Assembly: GCF_002844235.1 (NCBI RefSeq)
Contig: NZ_PGTS01000007.1
Coordinates: 124,001 to 188,000 of the forward strand
Source: Thalassospira povalilytica
GTDB taxonomy: Bacteria; Pseudomonadota; Alphaproteobacteria; Rhodospirillales; Thalassospiraceae
DNA length: 64,000 nucleotides
Reading direction: 5' to 3'
The position numbers and the translations under genes are program-made. The notes beneath the pieces are model-generated. The model was not told the origin of the DNA and made no database searches. It was given only the letters and a program-made list of their open reading frames with translations. Of the stretch, positions 4,679 through 60,925 are shown in pieces; the first letter of the stretch is position 1; every line of letters begins with the position of its first letter.

Positions 4679-6295
4679 ATGAGTGATTTTGTCTATAAAC
4701 CCATGTTCGATCAGGGGAAGGACACGACCCCGTACCGCAAGATCGGCGATGAGGGTGTTTCCACCGTTGACGTCAATGGCGAGACCTATTTGAAGGTTGA
4801 ACCCGAAGCGATTGAAAAACTGACCCTTCAGGCGTTTTTCGATTGTTCGCACCTTTTGCGTCCGGGCCATCTTGAACAGCTTCGCAAAATCCTTGATGAC
4901 GAAGAAGCCACACCGAACGACAAGTTCGTTGCGATGGATCTTCTGAAAAACGCATCCATTGCCTCGGGCGGGGTTTTGCCGATGTGTCAGGATACCGGAA
5001 CGGCAATCGTCATGGGCAAACGGGGTGGCAAGGTCATCACCGATGGTTCGGATGAAGAAGCGCTGTCCAAGGGTATCTGGCAGGCCTATCAGAAACATAA
5101 CCTGCGCTTCTCGCAGGTTTCCCCGATCAACATGTTCGAAGAAAAGAACACCGGGTCGAACCTTCCGGCACAGATCGATCTTTATGCGACCAAGGGCGAT
5201 GAATATAAATTCATGTTCATGGCAAAGGGCGGCGGGTCTGCCAACAAGACCTTCCTGTTCCAGCAGACCAAGGCGCTTCTGAACCCGGAAAGCCTGCGCA
5301 AGTTCCTTGACGAGAAAATCCGCACCCTTGGGACGTCTGCTTGCCCGCCGTATCACCTTGCCATCGTCATTGGCGGTACGTCGGCGGAAGCCTGCCTTAA
5401 GACCGTCAAAATGGCGTCTGCGCGTTATTACGACAACCTTCCGACCGAAGGTGGCGAGCATGGTCAGGCCTATCGTGACCTTGAATGGGAACAGAAGGTT
5501 CTTGAGATGACCCGCGAAATGGGCATCGGCGCACAGTTTGGTGGCAAGTATTTCTGCCACGATGTGCGTGTGATCCGCCTGCCGCGCCACGGGGCAAGCT
5601 GCCCGGTTGGTCTGGGTGTTTCGTGCTCTGCCGACCGTCAGATTCTCGGCAAGATCACCAAGGACGGTATCTTTATCGAGGATCTCGAACATGATCCGGC
5701 GAAATACCTTCCGCAGGTCACGGACGAGCATCTTGATGACGAAGTGGTCAAGGTTGACCTGAACCGTCCGATGGATGAAATCCGCAAGCAGCTTTCGCAA
5801 TATTCGGTCAAAACGCGCCTGTCGCTGACCGGGACCGTGATTGTGGCCCGTGACATCGCGCATGCCAAAATCAAGGAACGCCTTGATGCCGGTGAAGAGA
5901 TGCCCGAATACCTCAAAAACCATCCGGTTTATTATGCCGGTCCGGCGAAAACCCCGGAAGGCATGCCTTCGGGTTCGTTCGGCCCGACCACGGCGGGTCG
6001 TATGGATGCCTATGTCGAGCAGTTCCAGGCCGCTGGCGGTTCGTTCGTGATGCTGGCAAAAGGCAACCGTTCGAAGGCCGTCAAGGATGCCTGCGCGAAA
6101 TATGGCGGTTTCTATCTTGGATCGATCGGTGGCCCGGCTGCGCGTCTGGCACAGGATTGCATCAAGAAGGTCGAAGTTCACGAATATCCGGAACTTGGCA
6201 TGGAAGCCGTCTGGAAGATCGAAGTCGAAGACTTCCCGGCCTTCATCGTTATTGATGACAAGGGCAATGATTTCTTTGCCGAATTCGGCATCTGA
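4679..6295 (+). CDS. fumA: Fumarate hydratase, class I (iron-sulfur)
   Basis: This 538-residue enzyme interconverts fumarate and malate in the TCA cycle. The N-terminal alpha domain runs to about residue 340 and the C-terminal beta domain follows. Cys103 (PMCQDTGT), Cys222 (TSACPPYH) and Cys316 (GVSCSADR) align with the three 4Fe-4S ligands of class I fumarases. Length and order match the single-chain FumA/FumB form. A GAGAGACGAGAG stretch precedes the ATG. The gene is monocistronic, with a strong terminator just downstream. Confidence 0.95.
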
Positions 6296-6324
6296 TTTCG
6301 ATCCGGCCATCGGGAAAATCAAAA

Positions 6325-6355
6325 ACGGCGCAGGGGCAACCTTGCGCCGTTTTTT
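6325..6355 (+). terminator. Rho-independent terminator after the fumarase gene
   Basis: ACGGCGCA (6325-6332) pairs with TGCGCCGT (6343-6350), followed by six T residues. An A-run on the other side makes it usable in both directions. Confidence 0.85.
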
Positions 6356-6460
6356 CATGGATTTTGCCGCGCATAGCTGACCTCCGGTCAAAGGGGTTGC
6401 CGTATTGGGCGCGGCATGGTCTGATTCGGGCAAAATCAACCCTTTATCGGATAACCTGTT

Positions 6461-7381
6461 ATGTCTGAAACTTCCGCGCTTCGTGCCACCAGTGCGACGG
6501 AAAGCCGACTTGTCGGTGTGACATCTGCCTTGGCGACGGTCTTTATCTGGGCCGGTTGGCTTATTGCGACCCGCTATGCCATGACATCAAGCTTTACAGC
6601 TGTGGATATTGGTCTTTTGCGCTTTGTGGTGCCGTTTGTTCTGCTTGCCCCGATCTGGCTGAAAAAAGGCATCTGGCCCAAGGGGCTTTCGATTGCCAAT
6701 GGTCTTTTGATGCTGGTCGGGTCGGGGGCGTTTTACACGCTGATGGTTGCCAGTGCGCTGAAATTCGTTCCGGCAAGCCATGTGGGCATTTTGTTGCCCG
6801 GTGTGATGGCGGTCTGGGCGGTTCTGATTGCTGTTGTGATGTTTGGCGAACGTCCGGGCAAGCTACGTTTGACCGGGTATGGTGCGGTGATTGTCGGGGT
6901 CTTGTCGCTTGTGGCGCTTAAACCGGCCGGCGAGGTCAGCAGTGACATGTTGCTGGGCTATGGCCTTGTTTCTGCCGGGGCGTTCATGTGGGCGTGCTAC
7001 ACCCATGCCATGCGCCAAAGTGGTCTTGGCGCGCTTGAGGCGGCGGCCTTTGTCGGTTTCTGGTCCTTTGTGATCATGGCCATCATTGCGGTCTTTACCG
7101 GTACCACGCTTGCCGATGCGCCGGTTGGCGATGTCATGATGCTGTTGACCGCCCAGGGGCTTTTGGCCGGTTGTGTTGCGGTGATTACCTATGGCCTTGC
7201 CGTGCGTCATATCGGATCAACCGGTGCGTCGGCATTCGGGGCGATGACGCCGGCCCTGACAGCACTTGGCGGTGTGATCCTGCTGGGTGAGCAGGGCAAC
7301 CTTGCGCTGGCACTTGCCGTGGTGCTGGTGATCCTTGGTGTGATGATCGCATCGGGTGTCTTTCGCAAGGTCAGGGTTTAG
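6461..7381 (+). CDS. DMT-superfamily (EamA) transporter
   Basis: This 306-residue integral membrane protein has ten predicted helices arranged as two EamA repeats. The first runs from about residue 18 to 140 (VTSALATVFIWAGWLIATRYA at the start), the second from about 150 to 300. Members of this superfamily export metabolites and amino acids; the substrate is unknown here. The ribosome-binding site is weak (GGATAA). It is flanked by the fumarase terminator and by a long inverted repeat downstream, so it is probably transcribed alone. Confidence 0.88.
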   Translation: MSETSALRATSATESRLVGVTSALATVFIWAGWLIATRYAMTSSFTAVDIGLLRFVVPFVLLAPIWLKKGIWPKGLSIANGLLMLVGSGAFYTLMVASALKFVPASHVGILLPGVMAVWAVLIAVVMFGERPGKLRLTGYGAVIVGVLSLVALKPAGEVSSDMLLGYGLVSAGAFMWACYTHAMRQSGLGALEAAAFVGFWSFVIMAIIAVFTGTTLADAPVGDVMMLLTAQGLLAGCVAVITYGLAVRHIGSTGASAFGAMTPALTALGGVILLGEQGNLALALAVVLVILGVMIASGVFRKVRV

Positions 7382-50919: not shown

Positions 50920-51209
50920 GATTACGTGTCCCTTGCTTCGATCAAAAATGCGTTGCTCATGCTCGGACGCGTTGTTTCCCGCGTTCCGTTGATTGGAATA
51001 CTGCGCGACCATTGCGAAGGAAAAAGGGACCAATTGTGTAATTTTCGGGGGATGATGTGCGCAAAAACGCCGCAATTCTCCGTGCCGGTCCGGCAACAGG
51101 GCACAAGTTTTTTGAATGCATCGTTGGGGGACCGCCTGCGCCGGGTTGCCCATCACGATGGTTTGGCGTATGTACGGCGCAACCCCATCTTCGACGGAGA
51201 TACGGCCCG

Positions 51210-52763
51210 ATGACTGATCGCGTGCTGATTATTGATTTCGGATCCCAGGTTACCCAGCTGATTGCACGTCGCGTGCGTGAAAGCGGTGTCTATAGCGAGA
51301 TCCACCCTTTTAATAACATCTCGGATGCGTTCCTTGATGAATATGCCCCCAAGGCCGTGATCCTTTCGGGTGGCCCGGCGTCTGTCCATTGGGACAAGGC
51401 CCCGTCGGCACCGGCAAAGGTGTTTGAGCTCGGCGTTCCGGTTCTGGGCATCTGCTATGGTCAGCAGACCATGGTCAACCAGCTTGGCGGCAAGGTCGCG
51501 ACATCCGATCATCGTGAATTCGGTCGTGCCTTTGTTGACGTGATCGAAGATTGCGCGCTGTTTACCGGCGTTTGGGCCGCGGGCGCACGCGAACAGGTCT
51601 GGATGAGCCACGGCGACCGCGTTGATGCACTTCCCGACGGTTTCCGCGTTGTTGGCAAATCCGAAGGCGCACCGTTTGCCGCCATCGCCAATGACGAAAA
51701 GAAATTCTATGCGGTTCAGTTTCACCCGGAAGTGGTCCATACCCCGCATGGCGCACAGCTCCTTAAGAACTTTACGCATGGCGTTGCCGGTTGCTCTGGC
51801 GACTGGACGATGAATGCCTATAAGGACGATGCGATCGACAAGATCCGCAAACAGGTCGGTGATGGCAAGGTCATCTGTGGTCTGTCGGGCGGTGTTGACA
51901 GCTCTGTCACTGCGGTTCTGATCCACGAGGCAATCGGCGATCAGCTGACTTGCGTATTTGTTGATCATGGTTTCATGCGTGCGGGCGAGGCCGATCAGGT
52001 CGTCTCCCTGTTCCGTGACCATTACAACATCCCGCTGGTTCATGTTGATGCGTCCGAAACCTTTATCGGTGCGATCGAAGGCGAAACCGATCCGGAAGTA
52101 AAACGCAAAACCATTGGTCGTCTCTTCATCGAGACCTTCGAAGAAGAAGCCAAGAAAATCGGCGGTGCGGATTTCCTCGCACAGGGGACGCTGTATCCGG
52201 ACGTGATCGAAAGTGTGTCCTTCACCGGCGGCCCGTCCGTCACCATCAAGTCGCACCATAACGTTGGCGGTCTTCCTGAACGCATGAACATGAAGCTGGT
52301 TGAACCGCTTCGTGAACTGTTCAAGGACGAAGTCCGTGACCTTGGTCGTGAATTGGGCCTGCCGGACAGCTTTGTCGGGCGTCATCCGTTCCCTGGACCG
52401 GGTCTTGCGATCCGTATTCCGGGCCAGCCGATCACGCGCGAAAAGCTTGATATCCTGCGCAAGGCCGATGCGATCTATCTCGAAGAAATCCGTAATGCCG
52501 GTCTTTATGACGCGATCTGGCAGGCATTCGCCGTTCTGCTGCCGGTCCGTACCGTTGGCGTGATGGGCGATGGTCGCACCTATGACTATGCCTGTGCACT
52601 GCGTGCGGTCACCTCGACCGATGGCATGACCGCGGACTTCTATGCGTTCCCGCCGGAACTGCTTGGCCGCATTGCCAACCGCATCATCAATGAAGTCAAC
52701 GGCATCAACCGTGTCACCTATGACTTCACATCCAAACCACCGGGAACCATCGAGTGGGAATAA
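51210..52763 (+). CDS. guaA: GMP synthase (glutamine-hydrolysing)
   Basis: GuaA aminates XMP to GMP. The 517-residue protein has a class I amidotransferase domain with nucleophile Cys in GICYGQQ and the His/Glu pair in QFHPEV. An ATP-pyrophosphatase domain follows with the P-loop SGGVDSS, then a dimerisation domain ending [10 protein letters not shown]. It ends in a normal stop and terminator. A second, broken copy of its last third lies 1.2 kb downstream, beyond a GSCFA gene. Confidence 0.98.
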
Positions 52764-52785
52764 GTTGTCCGATATCGGAAACAAC

Positions 52786-52821
52786 AAACGGCGCGTCCAT
52801 TGGGCGCGCCGTTTTGTTTTT
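52786..52821 (+). terminator. Rho-independent terminator after guaA
   Basis: AAACGGCGCG (52786-52795) pairs with CGCGCCGTTT (52805-52814) around a nine-base loop and is followed by TGTTTTT. It isolates guaA from the GSCFA cargo. Confidence 0.85.
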
Positions 52822-52964
52822 GAATGTCGTTCCACTCACCTGGACGTGTGGGAGAAAAATATACTGTACCTTGTTGTTAAAAACTTGCACCCTGACCTCA
52901 GGCCCTGCGCCGATCCTTGCAAGGACTGGTTGCTTTCAAGTTATGTCAGAATGCGAGACGACAT

Positions 52965-53915
52965 ATGACGGATGACGATTTCTCATTTCATGCGACGCGT
53001 GAAAAGCCTGTCAGAATCAAGTCTGATGAAGATATCCAGACATTCAATGGGAGCTGGTATCGGGGGGAGTCGACCAATTTCATTCCGTCCAAAAAGATGT
53101 TGCAGTCAAGTAGCGCGTTCAGAAGATTCATCATCAAGGGGTATGAGCCACCGGCCCCGTTCATTGATAAATCGACTGTTGTGACAGCCTTTGGCAGTTG
53201 CTTTGCACAAAACATTTCAAAGTGGTTGCTTGATAATGGCTACAATGTCCTTGGCAAAAAGCTCAATCTCAACTCGCATATCATCCGTTTCGGAGAAGGG
53301 CTGGTAAATACCTTTGCCATTCGCGAACAGCTTGAATGGGCGTTTGAAAATCGAAGCCTGGAAGAAGGGTTATGGTTTGGCGAGAACAAGGAAATTGTTC
53401 TGCCTGATGATGATGTCCGGGACGCGACAAAAACGCTTCTGATGAAAACGGAAACATTGATCATTACAGTTGGCCTTTCCGAAGTCTGGTTTGACAAGGT
53501 TTCCGGACGGGCATTCTGGCGCACAGTGCCCGCAGAAAACTTCGACAATGAAAGACACGGATTCAGATTAACAACGGTCGAGGAAAACCGCGAAAATCTG
53601 GAAAAGATTGTCGAATTGCGAGATCGCTATATTCCGGATTGCAACATCATCTTCACGCTTTCGCCCATTCCACTGATGGCGACGTTTCGAGATATAAACT
53701 GCATTTCGGCAAACACGGTATCAAAGTCGATTTTGCGCATCGCGCTTGACGACCTGATGGGGGAAAAACACGACCGGGTTTATTATTTTCCGTCATATGA
53801 ACTGGTCAAGGAAGTCTATCCGGACCCGTTTGATGACGATAACCGGCACCCCAAGAAACCCTATATCCAGGAAATCATGCAGCTATTTGCCCGCGCTTAT
53901 TGCGAGGATACGTAA
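52965..53915 (+). CDS. GSCFA-domain protein, putative glycan esterase/synthesis
   Basis: The 316-residue protein shows the GSCFA signature FGSCFAQNISKWL near residue 76, the motif that names the family (SGNH-hydrolase-like, found in polysaccharide loci). A long conserved segment FNLNSHIIRFGEGLVNTFAIREQLEWAF follows in similar form, and IFTLSPIPLMATF is a later block. It may modify a surface glycan. Base composition is lower in GC than guaA. It is the only gene between intact guaA and the guaA remnant, so it looks like recombined cargo. Confidence 0.82.
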   Translation: MTDDDFSFHATREKPVRIKSDEDIQTFNGSWYRGESTNFIPSKKMLQSSSAFRRFIIKGYEPPAPFIDKSTVVTAFGSCFAQNISKWLLDNGYNVLGKKLNLNSHIIRFGEGLVNTFAIREQLEWAFENRSLEEGLWFGENKEIVLPDDDVRDATKTLLMKTETLIITVGLSEVWFDKVSGRAFWRTVPAENFDNERHGFRLTTVEENRENLEKIVELRDRYIPDCNIIFTLSPIPLMATFRDINCISANTVSKSILRIALDDLMGEKHDRVYYFPSYELVKEVYPDPFDDDNRHPKKPYIQEIMQLFARAYCEDT

Positions 53916-53948
53916 GCGGCTATTGATTTTCAGGCCGATCCATCCATC

Positions 53949-54589
53949 TTGATGCGTCCCAAACCTTCAAACAAGAGCCAAGAAAATCGGCGGTGCGGAT
54001 TTCGTCGCACAGGGGACGCAGTATCCGGACGTGATCGAAAGCGTGTCCTTCACCGGCGGCCCGTCAGTCACTATTAAGTCACACCACAATGTCGGTGGTC
54101 TTCCGGAACGTATGAACATGAAGCTGGTTGAGCCGCTTCGTGAACTGTTCAAGGACGAAGTTCGTGACCTTGGGCGTGAATTGGGCCTTCCTGACAGCTT
54201 TGTCGGGCGTCATCCGTTCCCTGGACCGGGTCTTGCGATCCGTATTCCGGGCCAGCCGATCACACGCGAAAAGCTTGATATCCTGCGCAAGGCCGATGCG
54301 GTCTATCTCGAAGAAATCCGCAATGCCGGTCTGTATGACGCGATCTGGCAGGCATTCGCCGTTCTGCTTCCGGTCCGTACCGTTGGCGTGATGGGCGACG
54401 GTCGTACCTATGACTATGCCTGTGCACTGCGCGCGGTCACCTCGACCGATGGCATGACCGCTGATTTCTATGCGTTCCCGCCGGAACTGCTTGGCCGCAT
54501 CGCCAACCGCATCATCAATGAAGTCAACGGCACCAACCGCGTGACTTACGACTATACCTCTAAACCACCCGGAACAATCGAGTGGGAAT
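53949..54589 (+). pseudogene. Truncated, frameshifted copy of the guaA 3' third
   Basis: Bases 53977-54588 align without gaps to guaA 52150-52761. A further 19 bases (53949-53967) match 52045-52063. Between them 86 bases of guaA are replaced by 9, a net loss of 77 that breaks the frame. Differences in the aligned part are mostly at third codon positions, with only a few amino-acid changes (for example Ile to Val, Phe to Tyr). The sequence therefore diverged as a working gene before being broken. The stop codon is lost (GGAATTTCG instead of GGAATAAG). Confidence 0.92.
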
Positions 54590-54671
54590 TTCGTGCACAG
54601 GAAACTTCAGGAAAAAGGTTGCCTCGGTTGATAGTGCTCTTTTCGCCCGTATTTAATTTGCCGTACCCTAA

Positions 54672-54700
54672 TTAAAAGAAAAGCACTAGAAACCTATAAT
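54672..54700 (+). promoter_or_regulatory. Promoter-like boxes just before the FkbM-like gene
   Basis: TTAAAA (54672-54677) and a perfect TATAAT (54695-54700) are spaced 17 bases. The latter ends two bases before an ATG, so if active, that ATG cannot be the start codon of this transcript; GTG 54733 fits better. Confidence 0.45.
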
Positions 54701-54732
54701 CTATGCCGTTTCTGATTAAAAGGTCTCTGCGC

Positions 54733-55638
54733 GTGATTTCGAAATTCAAAGCTGTTCTGAAAAGTTTCGCGAGGGCCCGGCGCGCCGAGGCTGCGGCAGA
54801 ACAAATTCTGCTTAATCAGGGTAAAATCCTGACCGGGATGTTTGCACATAAGGATGCAGCCCGACTGTGTGAGTATGAATGGAAAGTGTTCTCGCAATGG
54901 GGCGAGGACGGCATCATTCAGTTTTTGATTTCCGAGATAGAGATTGAACATCATACCTTCATTGAATTCGGCGTCGAAGCTTTCTTTGAAAGCAACTGCC
55001 GTTATCTTTTGCAAGGGTGTGACTGGCAGGGTTTTGTCATCGATGGTTCACAAAAGAATATTGCACGTCTGAGGCAAAGCGACCTTTATTGGCGCCATGA
55101 TTTGCAGTCGGTTGCGGCCTTTGTCGATAAGGATAATATCAATAGCCTTTTGACTGGATCCGGGTTTGATCGTGATCTTGGGGTTTTAAGTATCGATCTT
55201 GATGGTAACGATTATCATATTCTTGAGGCCATCAATTGTTTCGAACCCAGGATCATTATTTGCGAGTTCAATCCTTACTTTGGGCGTGAGCGGGCGGTTT
55301 CCGTTCCTTATGATCCAAAATTTTATCGAACTGAAAAGCATTATTCTAACCTGTATTTCGGCGCCTCGCTCAAGGCATTTATCCATCTTCTGGAAGGCCG
55401 GGGATATCGTCTGATCGGAACCGGAGCGATGGGCGGAAATGCGTATTTCGTTCGAAAAGACCTTGTGAATGCCAAGCTTGAGAAGCTGTCACAAAACCCG
55501 ATCCATTTTAACGGTAACTGTCGTGAAAGCGTTGACCAGAACGGCAATCTCACCTTTCTGCGCGGCGAGGAACGCCTGAAAGCTATTCGAGGGATGCCGG
55601 TGGTTAATGTCATCACCGGCAAATCCGAAGCGCTTTAG
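54733..55638 (+). CDS. Glycan-locus protein, FkbM-methyltransferase-like
   Basis: The roughly 300-residue cytoplasmic protein contains YEWKVFSQWGEDGIIQFL near residue 55, FIEFGVEAFFESNCRYLL, and GVLSIDLDGNDYHILEAI. This pattern is seen in FkbM-like putative methyltransferases of surface-polysaccharide loci. The SAM-binding motif is not canonical, so the activity is uncertain. The start is taken as GTG 54733, with AAAGG nine bases upstream, because a promoter-like TATAAT abuts the ATG at 54703. It lies directly after the guaA remnant. Confidence 0.65.
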   Translation: MISKFKAVLKSFARARRAEAAAEQILLNQGKILTGMFAHKDAARLCEYEWKVFSQWGEDGIIQFLISEIEIEHHTFIEFGVEAFFESNCRYLLQGCDWQGFVIDGSQKNIARLRQSDLYWRHDLQSVAAFVDKDNINSLLTGSGFDRDLGVLSIDLDGNDYHILEAINCFEPRIIICEFNPYFGRERAVSVPYDPKFYRTEKHYSNLYFGASLKAFIHLLEGRGYRLIGTGAMGGNAYFVRKDLVNAKLEKLSQNPIHFNGNCRESVDQNGNLTFLRGEERLKAIRGMPVVNVITGKSEAL

Positions 55639-55869
55639 GTTAGCTGATTTTTGCGCGATCATTTTGTTGCGTCATTTGCCAAACATCATAACCCATTGGT
55701 CGCTGTTGGAGCCGCTCTGATCCATGATTTAGGCGAGATTTTTATTCGGAAGTAAATTATTTAGGGTAAATGATCCTGCCGGGGAATGCCGTTGGAAACT
55801 CTCGTTTCTTTCTCTAAAAATCGCCTGCTGCATTCTTTTCTTTAAAGGTTTTTTTTAAAAGTATTTGTT

Positions 55870-56898
55870 ATGATCATTAGAAAATACACAAAATCATCAT
55901 CTTTTTATCTGGGGACCAAGGCAGGTTTTTTTGAAAGAAATGAGTCAAATCTAAACGAATCCTTGAAAGAGAATGAATTGTACTCGAAACAGCCCAAGAG
56001 AGAGATGTGTAAGATTTGTTCGTCTAGACTTCCCGGGGATGAGGATTTTCAATCTCACAATGTGAGCTATGTTTTTTGTACAGATTGCGGCCATTTAAAC
56101 GGAGTTTTTGAAGATACGATAGAATTTGTTGATAAAATTTACATGGAAGATAGTGGCGCAGAATATGCCAAAAATTATTTGGATGAGGATTTTTTAAATA
56201 GAGTCTCAGATATTTACGCTCCAAAGGTGGATTTTTTGCTATCGGTCGTTCCTGACGGGAATTGCGAAATACTGGATGTTGGATGTGGTGCTGGTTATTT
56301 TGTTTTGGCTTCATTGATGGAAAACCAACAGGCCAGTGGAATTGATGTTAGTGACGTCATGGTGAATTTTGGCAATCAGCAAATTCTGAGCCACCAAGGG
56401 TGCGCACCTTTGCAAAAAGTTAAAGAGGATGGTTTTTTTGAAGAAGTTACCAAGACAGGAGCGGATGTTGTATCTGCAATAGGGGTGATAGAGCACCTTC
56501 GCCAACCGCATAAATTATTTGAGGCCTTCAAAGAAAGTAAGGCAAAATATCTATATTATTCTGTTCCGATGTTTTCGTTGTCTGTCGTATGTGAGAATGT
56601 TTTCAAAAATGTGTTTCCGCGCCAGCTTTCTGGTGGGCATACCCATCTATTTACAGAGAAATCCATTTCCAGGATGCACGAATTACTTGGTGTCCGTCCT
56701 GTTGGGGAATGGAGATTTGGCACCGACTTTATGGATTTGTATCGGCATCTAAACATTTATCTTCGGGCTAACAACGTCTCTCAGAAGATGCTGGATTATT
56801 TTCACGCAGGGTTCGCAACAAAGATAGATGACCTTCAAGCCGCATTGGACAAAAACCACTTTTGTTCGGAAATACATGTGGTTGCGGTTAAGGATTAG
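55870..56898 (+). CDS. SAM-dependent methyltransferase with N-terminal zinc-knuckle
   Basis: The 342-residue protein has a CKICSSRLPG...FCTDCGHLN four-cysteine zinc motif near residues 47-76. A class I methyltransferase domain follows (ILDVGCGAGYFVLASL near 135, VIEHLRQPHKLFEAF later). This architecture is typical of sugar C- or O-methyltransferases in polysaccharide and nucleotide-sugar loci. Its DNA is strikingly AT-rich against the GC-rich genome, with oligo-T runs and no clear ribosome-binding site: a sign of recent transfer. The 231 bases before it are also AT-rich and empty. Confidence 0.86.
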   Translation: MIIRKYTKSSSFYLGTKAGFFERNESNLNESLKENELYSKQPKREMCKICSSRLPGDEDFQSHNVSYVFCTDCGHLNGVFEDTIEFVDKIYMEDSGAEYAKNYLDEDFLNRVSDIYAPKVDFLLSVVPDGNCEILDVGCGAGYFVLASLMENQQASGIDVSDVMVNFGNQQILSHQGCAPLQKVKEDGFFEEVTKTGADVVSAIGVIEHLRQPHKLFEAFKESKAKYLYYSVPMFSLSVVCENVFKNVFPRQLSGGHTHLFTEKSISRMHELLGVRPVGEWRFGTDFMDLYRHLNIYLRANNVSQKMLDYFHAGFATKIDDLQAALDKNHFCSEIHVVAVKD

Positions 56899-57030
56899 TC
56901 GGGGACAAAACTGGCAAAATTCGTAATTTTGTCAGTCTCTGCGTTGCAAAGACTTTAGTGCAATTTCCGTTTGGCGGGCCTGATGTCATTGCAATCAATT
57001 CAATTGATTGATGGGCTGGTCTTTACCTGG

Positions 57031-57180
57031 TCAGTCGACTGGTCCGGATGATCCGCAATCACTTGTCGCGTTGCACGCACCCGAAAGCACGCTTTGAAGG
57101 CTGCGCTGCCAATTGAATGTCAGACAGGATGACAGTGAAATAACCGCTGTCAGCATGACGATTATTCGAAGGCAGCGCAT
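57031..57180 (-). CDS. Small putative lipoprotein, 49 residues
   Basis: The product begins MRCLRIIVMLTAVISLSSC, a signal sequence with lipobox LSSC. A short exterior of about 30 residues has two more cysteines in SGACNATSDCGSSG. AGGAAAAGGAAA immediately upstream is a strong ribosome-binding site. It starts 10 bases after the SDR stop codon on the same strand, so the two are probably one transcript. The function is unknown. Confidence 0.58.
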   Translation of the reverse strand: MRCLRIIVMLTAVISLSSCLTFNWQRSLQSVLSGACNATSDCGSSGPVD

Positions 57181-57190
57181 TTTCCTTTTC

Positions 57191-57943
57191 CTATTTCCGA
57201 AGGGCGGGCAGGCCGACACCCGTGCTTTCAAATCCGCCATCGGTTGCGATGGTTTGTCCAGTCACAAAACTTGCCTTGTCACTGCATAGGAAAAGGATGA
57301 CTTCGGCGATTTCATTTTCCGTGCCATATCGGCCAAGCGGCATAGCATCAAGGTAGGCTGATATGATGTCGGTTGAATGGACTGCCATCGCCAGTTTGGT
57401 TTTGACCGGGCCGGGGCAGACGCAATTGGCGCGAATGCCGTATTCGCCAAGTTCGGCAGCCTGTTGTTTGGTCATGTGAATGACGGCAGCCTTTGACGTA
57501 CCATAGGCCACCCGAAGGGTCGATGCACGCAGGCCTGAGATCGAGCCGATATTGACAATTGCGCCTTTGGTTTCCTTTAGCGCCGGAATGGCTGCCTGCG
57601 ACACCAGGAACACGCCATCAAGGTTGGTTTCCATGATCCTGCGCCAGGTGGCAAAGCTGGTTTCTTCGACCGGAAGGAAATCGGCAACCCCGGCATTGTT
57701 GATGACTGCATCAATCCGGCCGAATTCAGAAAGAACATCGTCAATCATCTGATCGACCTGTTGGGGGACGGAAACATCAAAGATGAATGCCTTGCCATCC
57801 GTCATCGCGCTTGTGGCCTGTGTCAGTTCATCCCCGTCACGATCAATCATTGCCACTTTCCAGCCCTGTTCGATGAACAGTTTGCTGGTGGCAAGTCCGA
57901 TCCCGCGCGCAGCCCCTGTGACCAGGGCGATCTTTTGTGTCAT
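57191..57943 (-). CDS. Short-chain dehydrogenase/reductase
   Basis: This 250-residue classical SDR has the cofactor motif TGAARGIG near residue 9, NNAG at about 82, the catalytic Ser in GSISGLRAS, and YxxxK as YGTSKAAV. It ends in the ATDGGFESTGVG pattern of FabG-like oxidoreductases. An Asp after the second strand (MIDRD) favours NAD. The substrate is unknown. GC content matches the core genome, unlike the methyltransferase next to it. It is followed by a small lipoprotein gene. Confidence 0.9.
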   Translation of the reverse strand: MTQKIALVTGAARGIGLATSKLFIEQGWKVAMIDRDGDELTQATSAMTDGKAFIFDVSVPQQVDQMIDDVLSEFGRIDAVINNAGVADFLPVEETSFATWRRIMETNLDGVFLVSQAAIPALKETKGAIVNIGSISGLRASTLRVAYGTSKAAVIHMTKQQAAELGEYGIRANCVCPGPVKTKLAMAVHSTDIISAYLDAMPLGRYGTENEIAEVILFLCSDKASFVTGQTIATDGGFESTGVGLPALRK

Positions 57944-58012
57944 CTGTTCCGTCCTCTCCTGAAGCATTTGGTTTTTTTACGATGGTGCCATCGCTTTATT
58001 GGCTTCATTTAG

Positions 58013-58167
58013 GCAAAACAATCACGTTGCGGCAAGTGCCGCATCGTTTCGGGTGGAACCCGGCATTGTGTCAGGCATGGAGAAACAACTGTGCGGCATA
58101 GACCAGCATGGCAGACAGGCTAACGAAATAGGCAATGGACCGCACACCGTGTACATGGGGGGACAAC
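58013..58167 (-). pseudogene. Diverged remnant of the MAPEG gene 3' end
   Basis: Bases 58013-58138 match 60448-60573 without gaps, with about ten mismatches by my count. They include the last codons, stop and hairpin of the MAPEG gene at 60506. On the minus strand the remnant still reads GVRSIAYFVSLSAMLVYAAQ against GVRTIAYFVSLLAMLVYAAQ in the intact gene, and then stops as it does. Upstream similarity fades near 58167, where the PseI cargo begins. Confidence 0.85.
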
Positions 58168-58206
58168 GGGCATATTAGTTTCGCATTTCTGAGTAGAGTT
58201 TGTTGC

Positions 58207-59250
58207 TCAAATCTCTAAATCACTCCATTTGACGGGTTCACCTCGCGCGATATCTCTTTTCACCGTTTTGCCAATGACTTCAGAGTAGTGCTTGGAAGCT
58301 AATCCAAATCCAGGGCGAATTCTGCGGACATCATCTTTTGAAATAGTTGTCCCAGAGGGGAGGTCTCTTACGAAATACAATGATCGACGGAATGCTTTGT
58401 TTGCTGTTTCCGCGTCAGGACGAGAAAACTCTTCTCTTCCCAAGGCGAGCCATGCGTCACGTGTGTCATTGACCAGTGCCGACAACTCGTCTGGTTCCAG
58501 GGAGAATGTGCTGTCTGGTCCTTTTTCCAATCGACTCATGGTGAAATGTTTTTCGATCGCGACTGCTCCCAAAGCAACGGCAGAAATTGCCGCAGTATTC
58601 GTCAGTGTGTGGTCTGACAAACCCACTTCGACGTTAAACGTTTTCTTAATATAGACCATATTGTTTAGGTTGCATTGGTCAAGAGGAGCTGGGTAGCTGC
58701 TAATGCAATGAAATAACAAGATGTTCTTAATCCCGCTGCGTCTGGCAACTTCGACGGCGTCACCAATCTCGCTTTCGCTTGCCATCCCTGTCGACATTAG
58801 GATTGGCTTTTGGGTCTCGGCTATTCTTTCAATTAACGGGTGATCATTAAGCTCAAAGGAGGCAACTTTGTATGCGGGGGCATCAAGCCTCTGCAGCAAG
58901 TCAATAGCTGTTTCATCAAATGGAGAGGAAAAAATAGTAATACCGATTTCCCTAGCGTAACGGAACAGTTCCTCGTGCCATTCATAAGGAGTATGAGCCT
59001 CTGTATAAAGCTGATATAGCGTGTAACCATCCCACAGTCCTCCAGTGATTTTAAAGTCGTCACGGTCACAATCAATGGTCATACTATCGGCCGTATAGGT
59101 CTGCAATTTAACAGCATGAGCTCCAGATTTCTTGGCCGCTAATATACTTTGTTTTGCTCTGTCAATTGAGCCGTTATGGTTGGCGGACAATTCTGCAATT
59201 ATGTAGGGAGGGTATGATTGGCTCAGCTCTCGGTTTGCAATCTTGTACAA
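58207..59250 (-). CDS. pseI: Pseudaminic acid synthase / NeuB-family sugar synthase
   Basis: The 347-residue protein condenses a hexose with phosphoenolpyruvate to a nonulosonic acid. It has the NeuB barrel (IIAELSANHNGSIDRAKQSI, VKLQTYTADSMTID, LSDHT, AIEKHFT). The C-terminal SAF antifreeze-like domain starts with RRSLYFVRDLPSGTTISKDD; SLYFVRDLPSG and RPGFGLA favour PseI over sialic-acid NeuB. The start is TTG, with GAGG upstream. The remaining Pse pathway genes are not in the window. It is AT-rich and sits inside the MAPEG-flanked cargo. Confidence 0.88.
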   Translation of the reverse strand: MYKIANRELSQSYPPYIIAELSANHNGSIDRAKQSILAAKKSGAHAVKLQTYTADSMTIDCDRDDFKITGGLWDGYTLYQLYTEAHTPYEWHEELFRYAREIGITIFSSPFDETAIDLLQRLDAPAYKVASFELNDHPLIERIAETQKPILMSTGMASESEIGDAVEVARRSGIKNILLFHCISSYPAPLDQCNLNNMVYIKKTFNVEVGLSDHTLTNTAAISAVALGAVAIEKHFTMSRLEKGPDSTFSLEPDELSALVNDTRDAWLALGREEFSRPDAETANKAFRRSLYFVRDLPSGTTISKDDVRRIRPGFGLASKHYSEVIGKTVKRDIARGEPVKWSDLEI

Positions 59251-59273
59251 TTTTGCCTCGAATGAACGAAAAA

Positions 59274-59702
59274 CTACGTAAGTGAAAAGGTGGTCTGTAT
59301 TTCAGTCCAGCCTAACTTTGCTACTTGCTCTTTCATTAGAGCATTATTTGTTGGGATATTGATGTAAAAATTTGGTGGTCTAACAGATTTTATTTCTTTG
59401 AGAGGGCTGTGGTTTTGAATGATGAAGTCAAGTACGGTGCTTAAGAATTTTTCTGATCCATCAATCAATGATACGGATATGCAATTGCTATCCATTACAT
59501 AGCAAGACCCAATGCATTTAAAATTTTCATAGATAAGGTACCAAGCTATATAAGGGTTTTTCATCACAAATTCATAATGTTCATCGTAGCTTGGTGTTGA
59601 CTTGTGACTTATGTTAAAGGAGCGATTTTTTAATAGATTGTACAAATCGTTAACTTGTTGTTCTGTTCCTTCAACTTTGGTGAACGTTATTTCATTTGTC
59701 AT
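59274..59702 (-). CDS. Possible GNAT-like protein in the PseI cargo
   Basis: This 142-residue protein is very AT-rich in coding sequence. The order WYLIYENFKCIGSCYVMDSNCISVSLI, then the C-terminal NIPTNNALMKEQVAKLGWTEIQTTFSL, resembles the strands and last helix of N-acetyltransferases. However, the acetyl-CoA-binding loop is not evident. It lies between the PseI gene and a clear GNAT gene on the same strand with short gaps. A role in nonulosonate modification is inferred from context only. Confidence 0.55.
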   Translation of the reverse strand: MTNEITFTKVEGTEQQVNDLYNLLKNRSFNISHKSTPSYDEHYEFVMKNPYIAWYLIYENFKCIGSCYVMDSNCISVSLIDGSEKFLSTVLDFIIQNHSPLKEIKSVRPPNFYINIPTNNALMKEQVAKLGWTEIQTTFSLT

Positions 59703-59734
59703 GTAGTTACGTCTGTCGTTTCAGTTTTATCAAT

Positions 59735-60193
59735 TTAATTTAGCGTGTAGTATAAGATACCATGTTCCGGTTTTGATTCAACTTCGAGAAAGCCGGCGGA
59801 CTTGAAAGTATTATTGCTTGCTGCGTTGTCAATCCGAACGACGGCAATGATCTCGTGCGAATGAATCTGTCTAAATTTCTCTACACAGGCCCTCAATAGA
59901 GGAACTGCTTTCCGTTGTCCTCTATGCTTGGGGTTTAGGTTGATGGAGACTTTGGCGGAGAGCTGTCCCGAAACTCTGTCGAATCTGACCATGCCGACTT
60001 TATCGCCATCTATCTCTCCGATGAATATGAAACTGTCAGGTGCTGATAATGTTTGAGTGAACCATTTCTCATGTTGTTCAATTGTTATTAGGTCAGAATT
60101 TAGTGACATGGCACGAGTTGTTGGATCATTCCGCCAAGAAAGAATATCTAAACTATCTTCTGCTCGGCATTCTCTAATCTTGATGTGAAGCAT
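59735..60193 (-). CDS. GNAT-family N-acetyltransferase (PseH-like)
   Basis: This 152-residue GNAT domain reads IRECRAEDSLDILSWRNDPTTRAMSLNS, FIGEIDGDKVGMVRFDR, and the acetyl-CoA loop NPKHRGQRKAVPLLRACVE. It closes VVRIDNAASNNTFKSAGF. The pattern matches acetyltransferases of amino-sugar pathways such as PseH or the C-terminal domain fused to PseG. A 39-codon longer reading exists but is AT-rich and unconserved in appearance. It precedes the PseI gene in the same direction, so the three genes probably form one transcript. Confidence 0.78.
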   Translation of the reverse strand: MLHIKIRECRAEDSLDILSWRNDPTTRAMSLNSDLITIEQHEKWFTQTLSAPDSFIFIGEIDGDKVGMVRFDRVSGQLSAKVSINLNPKHRGQRKAVPLLRACVEKFRQIHSHEIIAVVRIDNAASNNTFKSAGFLEVESKPEHGILYYTLN

Positions 60194-60505
60194 TCGGGGA
60201 ATCCAGTCAAAATACTGATGTTCGAAATGGGGTAAATTTATCCTAATTCGCGAGATAGACAGTGAGGATAACTCATTAAGGTGGAAATATAGCTGCCATA
60301 GGTGGACCACTCGAATAATCTTGTTGCGATGTTGGCTTAAAATTTCCCGGTGCGGGATGATTCTTAACTTGGTAAAGCCTTAAACGCAAATCTAGGACGG
60401 TGGAAACCTAGTAATCGGACTGCGGTTCTGTTTTATCTTGTCTGCTAGCAAAACAATCACGATGCGGCAAGTGCTGCATCGTTTCGGGCGGAACCCGGTA
60501 TCGTG

Positions 60506-60925
60506 TCAGGCATGGACAAACAACTGTGCGGCATAGACCAGCATGGCAAGCAGGCTGACGAAATAGGCGATGGTTCTCACGCCTTTTACCGGGCCGAGAT
60601 GTTCGATCCCGGAAAGATACCATCCGCCATGCGCAAGACGGGCAAGAAGAAATACAGTCGCACAGGCGATGGTGACCGTATTCGAAACACCGGTTGCCTG
60701 TGCGACAAGAGTGATGATTGCAAACGGTACGAGGTTTTCCAGATGGTTCTGATGTGCGCGCAACCCGCGGGCGGCCATGCCCGCACGTTCCGGAAGGCCG
60801 TCACGATTGCCCATCAGCTGTGTGCCACCAACACCGGGTTGTTTGGCATAGGCGTAATTGTAGGCCCACGGAAAGGCCAGGCACAGCAGGGCATTTAACA
60901 GCAGAATGAAAAGCTCGTATGTCAC
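60506..60925 (-). CDS. MAPEG-family membrane protein
   Basis: The 139-residue protein has four membrane helices in the MAPEG arrangement, with the conserved GMAARGLRAHQNHLENLVPF after the first helix and LARLAHGGWYLSGI later. Family members act in glutathione-linked membrane detoxification; the bacterial role is unclear. The start is GTG. The 3' end plus about 60 flanking bases (60448-60573) is repeated at 58013-58138, beyond the PseI cargo. This copy is the intact border gene of the mosaic region. Confidence 0.88.
   Translation of the reverse strand: MTYELFILLLNALLCLAFPWAYNYAYAKQPGVGGTQLMGNRDGLPERAGMAARGLRAHQNHLENLVPFAIITLVAQATGVSNTVTIACATVFLLARLAHGGWYLSGIEHLGPVKGVRTIAYFVSLLAMLVYAAQLFVHA

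Follow-up and report, generated by a model that had tools for sequence, protein, structure and literature searches.

Displaced guaA and MAPEG gene ends form a two-sided stack at a horizontal-transfer hotspot of Thalassospira

We analysed a 64,000-nucleotide (nt) stretch of the Thalassospira povalilytica genome (contig NZ_PGTS01000007.1, positions 124,001 to 188,000 of the forward strand; hereafter the window), in which guaA, the gene for GMP synthase, and a gene of the MAPEG family border an interval that carries a second 3′ end of each. Read inward from either side, the interval has the same design: on the left, the intact guaA is followed by a GSCFA-domain gene and a diverged copy of the guaA 3′ end, and on the right, the intact MAPEG gene is followed by genes for a GNAT acetyltransferase, a protein of 142 amino acids (aa) and the synthase PseI, and then by a diverged copy of the MAPEG 3′ end. 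Between the displaced ends lie two methyltransferase genes, the remains of a short open reading frame (ORF) with an LSSC lipobox, which we named “lip” by eye, and a gene for an SDR oxidoreductase (Table 1). The original prediction had described both halves of this architecture, and both were confirmed, the left by repeat search, self-comparison and Pfam, and the right by its repeats, Pfam and a PseI equivalog score above the cut-off. A general repeat search returned direct repeats at 52148-52447/53976-54275 (94%) and 58013-58154/60448-60589 (89%), and self-comparison gave a left repeat of 628 nt at 93.2% (E 0) and a right repeat of 142 nt at 88.7% (E 2e-48), both far above chance. Mis-assembly is unlikely, since the copies diverge by 5-11% and sit within a 234-kb contig.

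For comparison we used the window's own genome and 28 other Thalassospira genomes, one per species (29 in all; genomes are designated by G numbers and fetched loci by L numbers). guaA DNA was present in 56 of the 60 genomes searched, own included, among them all 28 other members of the genus, whose guaA regions were taken for comparison of the interval. The displaced guaA end begins near 53943, further left than a plain search indicates: positions 53943-53966 align to guaA about 725-701 nt from the gene end, scoring 33-38 with the guaA of six genomes versus at most 24-27 in 300 shuffles each. Between two ACCTT repeats the copy lacks 75 nt, and a further single base is missing close by; its right end, directly past GAGTGGGAA, falls on the first base of the stop codon. 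In a tree of 552 columns it is the sister of the window's intact guaA (99/93), inside a group with G021, a placement that is moderately firm; copy and intact guaA are 94.7% identical, and intact guaA and that of G021 94.6%. Changes specific to the copy comprise 20 silent and 3 replacing ones, with 73% replacing expected without selection (P 3e-9). Because these changes are mostly silent and the divergence is at the level of the next species, the copy diverged while it still belonged to a functional guaA in a close relative, and its truncation came afterwards. It thus represents a closely related lineage's allele that worked until recently and is now eroding, rather than a recent tandem duplicate of the local gene or a relic long in decay. 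Recent tandem copying was the explanation against which the original prediction had set its own; local duplication of gene ends followed by decay would agree with the sister placement of the guaA copy and with its incipient erosion, but the preponderance of silent changes, unlike that of a decaying duplicate, and the 5% divergence make such an origin extremely unlikely.

Table 1. Features of the guaA-MAPEG interval, in window coordinates
Feature	Position	Strand	Evidence or remarks
Intact guaA (GMP synthase), left border gene	51207..52763	+	Pfam GATase and GMP_synt_C; 518 aa; 91.5-99.4% aa identity in 28 same-genus genomes
Conserved guaA terminator region, after intact guaA, absent after copy	52764..52831	+	91% to G021 over 68 nt; by-eye comparison
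Cargo: GSCFA-domain gene	52917..53915	+	PF08885 6e-41
Stretch resembling GSCFA-to-lip junction of G002/G012 (weak)	53919..53942	+	Shuffle P 0.005 (G002), 0.023 (G012), 1000 shuffles
Second guaA 3′ end, pseudogene, without guaA stop codon, 75 nt missing near left end	53943..54589	+	
GAGTGGGA at right edge of guaA copy (the guaA integration core published for GIsul2)	54580..54587	+	
Cargo: FkbM-like methyltransferase	54703..55638	+	PF05050 20.3 bits, below Pfam cut-off 22.7
Cargo: S-adenosylmethionine (SAM) methyltransferase	55870..56898	+	PF13489 2e-10
Remains of conserved lip stretch before SDR	57050..57135	-	76% over 86 nt to G021
SDR oxidoreductase, core gene of locus	57191..57967	-	
Second MAPEG 3′ end: gene's last 84 nt and 58 nt downstream	58013..58154	-	88.7% to 60448-60589
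Cargo: PseI (pseudaminic acid synthase; NeuB)	58207..59250	-	TIGR03586 490 bits, cut-off 340
Cargo: 142-aa protein	59274..59702	-	No Pfam or NCBIfam match
Cargo: GNAT acetyltransferase, PseH-like below cut-off	59735..60310	-	PF13302; TIGR03585 42.7 bits, cut-off 93.1
Outer copy of 142-nt repeat	60448..60589	-	
Intact MAPEG, right border gene, diverged allele	60506..60925	-	PF01124; tree (end branch 0.31)

The displaced MAPEG end, in which tblastn assigns about 96 nt to the gene, is closest to the window's own MAPEG (87% within the gene). Its 58 downstream nt taken alone gave no match at E 1e-3 in the other fetched loci, and a longer alignment to G021, at 78%, spans them. The intact MAPEG of the window has the longest end branch of its tree (median branch 0.047) and is at most 74% identical to any other MAPEG; the neighbouring HTH gene is 91% identical to those of G018 and G021. 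A recombination tract in the right flank was considered and rejected: identity of the window's genome to G021 is lower there overall than on the left, but no clear edge was seen. There is a second variable spot nearby, at window coordinate ~65150, where G021 and G018 carry about 4.5 kb missing from the window's genome.

The native order of the locus, guaA-SDR-MAPEG, is present in 14 of the 28 other genomes (with MAPEG degraded in G009), and in 13 of these 14 the gap between SDR and MAPEG is shorter than 180 nt; the gap of G009 holds a methyltransferase gene. The latter (L043:6275-7362), placed between SDR and the broken MAPEG, may parallel the right-hand arrangement of the window. In five genomes (G005, G010, G015, G025 and G028) the usual order is inverted and MAPEG stands on the guaA side of SDR; SDR is present without a MAPEG match in G003, G013 and G024; and the core SDR was not found in the compared stretch of G011, G019, G020, G023, G026 and G027, that of G023 stopping with its contig. 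A second SDR in G003 and G006, considered as a further case of the pattern, was rejected, as the tree shows unrelated SDR paralogues. Most of the genus shares the window's SDR as a core gene, so that the right-hand side of the inner block, with its lip-like stretch, SDR and MAPEG end, is in native order. This agrees with the original prediction that the inner block, from one remnant to the other, looks like an earlier allele of the interval; SDR itself is not cargo, and a strain with the inner block only was found in none of the 28.

Where both borders could be placed, the distance from the guaA stop to the MAPEG start varies from 1,165 to 12,344 nt (measured in G020 to the farther MAPEG). The interval is nearly empty in some of the 28 genomes and filled with different cargo in others. 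Other glycan cargo, which the original prediction had proposed to look for between guaA and MAPEG in relatives, was indeed found (FkbM, PseI and Wzz genes), and the cargo includes FkbM and PhyH with GSCFA in G018, a formyltransferase-PseI-DUF218-SDR-DAO set in G002 (by Pfam, and with GSCFA) and in G013 (by clustering), FkbM-Wzz in G012 and acyltransferase-SGNH in G009. PseI scores above its cut-off in 6 of the 29 genomes, and three of these six genes lie in the guaA-MAPEG interval (own, G002 and G013). Mobility genes are few: Pfam, applied to the ten ORFs of the window's interval and to 40 of the 46 ORFs listed for relatives (37 from the genus and three from the other-family genomes G035 and G047), returned a single integrase, in G023, and no integrase, transposase, replication or transfer gene among the ten. 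The guaA-(lip)-SDR-MAPEG interval is a hypervariable horizontal-transfer hotspot of Thalassospira. Matches to defence profiles also occur in it, in six genomes, comprising Thoeris ThsB and ThsA (G027), DRT3 a and b (G011), an NsnA/GmrSD-like gene adjoining a HEPN-like gene (G008), PDC-S73 (G019), FRG/PDC-S15 (G004) and a Mads6/PD-T4-6-like kinase (G026).

To judge from their families, the GSCFA, methyltransferase, PseI and PseH-like acetyltransferase genes of the window point to surface-glycan modification. Relatives of its GSCFA protein at 84% aa identity are encoded in G018 and G002, with a fragment in G012, all within the guaA-MAPEG interval, and those elsewhere (G005 and G024) reach 28-29%; the best relatives of the FkbM-like methyltransferase, at 41-52% aa, are located at other genomic places. 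The neighbour of GSCFA is lip-SDR in G002 and, for the GSCFA fragment, in G012, whereas in the window and in G018 it is a guaA remnant.

Self-comparison of the 29 intervals uncovered repeats of border sequence in five genomes, namely the window's own, G018, G012, G020 and G002. G018 has a 143-nt guaA end, 76% identical and frame-broken, and G012 has a 144-nt lip stretch repeated at 87.5% as well as a 70-nt piece, at 74%, that comprises guaA tail and terminator. The G012 interval (L048:2851-3079 and 5777-6507) is another stacked one, with the GSCFA fragment between its two right-hand copies. In G020 (region L059:3658-7459) there are two intact MAPEG genes, 90.7% identical, with the likeness limited to the coding stretch and other genes between them, and in G002 (L044, 10293-10345 in guaA-forward coordinates) 53 nt of the SDR start, at 79%, are found on the far side of MAPEG. 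DNA homologous to the stretch with this SDR-start remnant occupies the same place in G004, G008, G017 and G022; taken together, this remnant and the five genomes in which MAPEG precedes SDR hint that SDR was rearranged at an earlier time. Further repeats were found in G002 (35 nt), G020 (51 nt) and G021 (32 nt). None of the 28 genomes shares the double architecture of the window, and the possibility raised in the original prediction that all relatives carry an identical arrangement was thus not what we found; its view of the locus as a nested mosaic of several arrivals is supported. The left and right events are separable, because G018 combines a left-type scar with a single MAPEG. Outside the genus, copies of a guaA end were seen in two genomes of other families, one of 86 nt that ends with the stop codon (G035, L061:6546-6631) and one of about 106-110 nt from within the gene (G047, L060:7250-7355).

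The right edge of the guaA copy brings integrases into consideration. The copies in the window and in G018 both terminate after GAGTGGGAAT, the point at which an integrase-bearing element begins in G023 and the DNA of G023 departs from that of its relatives. The tyrosine integrase gene of this element lies about 260 nt past guaA (L050:2241-3488, minus strand), and the far end of the element is off the contig. The GIsul2 island is reported to insert at GAGTGGGA in guaA (PMC9376610). In 119 kb of intervals this octamer occurs four times on the plus strand, three times in scars (own, G018 and G012) and once in G019. Moreover, G012 contains an attR-like piece, in which non-guaA DNA is followed by TTGAGTGGGAATAG and then by the native terminator, and the last 60 nt of the window's guaA copy are more divergent (11/60) than its body (29/549; P 8e-4, with the border picked after looking). 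Islands of this type at the guaA 3′ end might therefore have made the left part of the window, the right edge of the copy being an attachment-site scar, the integrase having been lost, and the FkbM-like and SAM methyltransferase genes representing the cargo. The native terminator, however, follows the intact guaA and not the copy, which is the reverse of what plain insertion by an integrase would yield, so that such insertion fails to explain the order. The copied guaA segment of about 650 nt far exceeds an attachment core, the ten ORFs include no integrase, and nothing similar is seen at MAPEG. The window's interval has a single GAGTGGGA after guaA, and it lacks a distal attachment site that leads into native DNA from downstream of guaA. 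Homology may also stop simply at the gene end, as G002, G003 and G013 depart within a few bases of it, too. We regard this origin of the left part as rather unlikely, although integrase history at guaA may be part of the history of the locus. The original prediction that neither integrase nor insertion sequence is needed agrees with the content of the ten ORFs, but has to be read alongside the guaA copy ending at the very base where the G023 element starts.

The locus was probably formed by repeated additive insertions, anchored by homology at a recombination hotspot, each of which left the old gene end behind. An incoming piece of DNA from a close relative would recombine homologously within the border gene, while illegitimate recombination would attach its other end before the old gene end is reached, so that a new border-gene end with its cargo would be added and the old 3′ end would stay behind on the inward side. 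On the left, a recipient with guaA running straight into the FkbM/methyltransferase cargo may have gained guaA-terminator-GSCFA from a sister lineage, and on the right, a recipient with SDR-MAPEG may have gained the PseI, 142-aa and GNAT genes beside a MAPEG end. The stretch after GSCFA looks as if a guaA-terminator-GSCFA-lip allele had been joined onto a guaA-FkbM-methyltransferase-lip-SDR-MAPEG allele. We infer the anchoring and joining, their direction (that is, which copy is the older), and the number and order of events.

Several observations weigh against such additive insertion. No intermediate or donor genome was found: the DNA of the inner cargo, searched in the 29 Thalassospira genomes, is present in full only in the window's own, while G025 and G010 share about 120 nt of it and G024 shares 31 nt; the outer right cargo is represented, besides own, only by parts of PseI in five genomes; and among 297 genomes of the order, 27 including own have a match to the FkbM protein, which outside own reaches 52% aa at best. 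Short homology at the joins is weak, the likeness of the post-GSCFA stretch to the G002 and G012 junction having P values of 0.005 and 0.023, and the MAPEG copy lacks the length needed for a tree or for dating. Approximately unbiased (AU) tests that forced other placements of the guaA copy gave P values of 0.042, 0.019, 0.047 and 0.122, which is only moderate discrimination. Finally, the intact guaA displays no switch of ancestry, the parts before and after the copied segment being 95.3% and 94.9% identical to G021, and 94.9% and 93.3% to G018, so that the expected crossover is not visible.

The circles invoked in the original prediction, each carrying a border-gene end plus cargo and integrating by a single crossover, would also yield gene-cargo-gene-end repeats on both sides, as observed. 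They are unneeded, as linear DNA anchored in the border gene gives the same product, and they require the assumption of two circles with chromosomal ends; the ten ORFs hold no replication or transfer gene, and the joint after GSCFA is weakly like chromosomal GSCFA-lip DNA. We consider two such circles quite improbable. A single linear fragment of about 4.2 kb, spanning the guaA end to the MAPEG end of a sister strain and inserted into the outer allele, would explain why both remnants face inward and why both are nearest to the window's own alleles, and its length is near the size of the fragments packaged by gene-transfer agents (GTAs). Its insertion would need two homology-free joins, yet Ku is absent (PF02735 in none of the 29 genomes, with a positive Bacillus control), which led us to reject Ku-dependent end joining; packaging of the inner block by a GTA was likewise rejected, as GTA_TIM (PF13547), the one marker used, was found in none of the 29, with a positive Caulobacter control. 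G018, moreover, has the left-type scar alone, and a single-fragment origin is very unlikely. A broader proposal, that border-gene ends and cargo travel as units, with the 3′ terminus of an essential gene acting as an integrase-free landing anchor from both sides, appears improbable to us; if true, each arrival would regenerate the border gene and strand the old end on the inward side, and a layered record of arrivals would build up at a single site used by glycan and defence genes alike.

The additive insertions favoured here have counterparts in other systems. In Vibrio cholerae, stacked arrays of type VI secretion system (T6SS) effector-immunity modules have been explained by homology-facilitated illegitimate recombination (PMC5361080), and there, as here, a module is anchored in a conserved stretch, the old gene or its 3′ end is pushed downstream, and a mosaic of arrivals results; the displaced ends of the Vibrio arrays, however, belong to an effector gene and the additions run one way, whereas in Thalassospira core-gene ends are displaced on both sides and the cargo is of the glycan type. 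Homologous exchange at the core genes that flank hotspots is supported across 80 species (PMC5635113), with the same core neighbours, turnover of cargo and paucity of mobility genes as at our locus, but the double crossover proposed there replaces cleanly, while the Thalassospira additions left gene-end scars. The replacement flexible genomic islands of aquatic bacteria (PMC4033161) similarly involve surface-glycan cargo swapped by homologous recombination, with border changes that are mostly silent, although they exchange whole clusters and the cargo of the window is stacked. With GIsul2-type islands (PMC9376610) the locus shares an edge at GAGTGGGA of guaA, and it differs from them in having no integrase among its ten ORFs and no distal attachment site before native DNA. 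In one open-access library, we found nothing on partial copies of flanking core genes, or on guaA with defence hotspots in alphaproteobacteria, and none of the papers found there on Thalassospira genomic islands concerns the guaA-MAPEG locus, judged by title.

The guaA-MAPEG locus is thus a real and unusually legible two-sided stack at a transfer hotspot. Integrase-free hotspots are common, but the addition of cargo, as opposed to its swapping, is seldom visible in them. Displaced core-gene ends serve as markers that a close relative was involved, that additions stack, and that one spot serves both surface-glycan and anti-phage genes, and a search for inward copies of border-gene ends could expose additive insertions at many hotspots.

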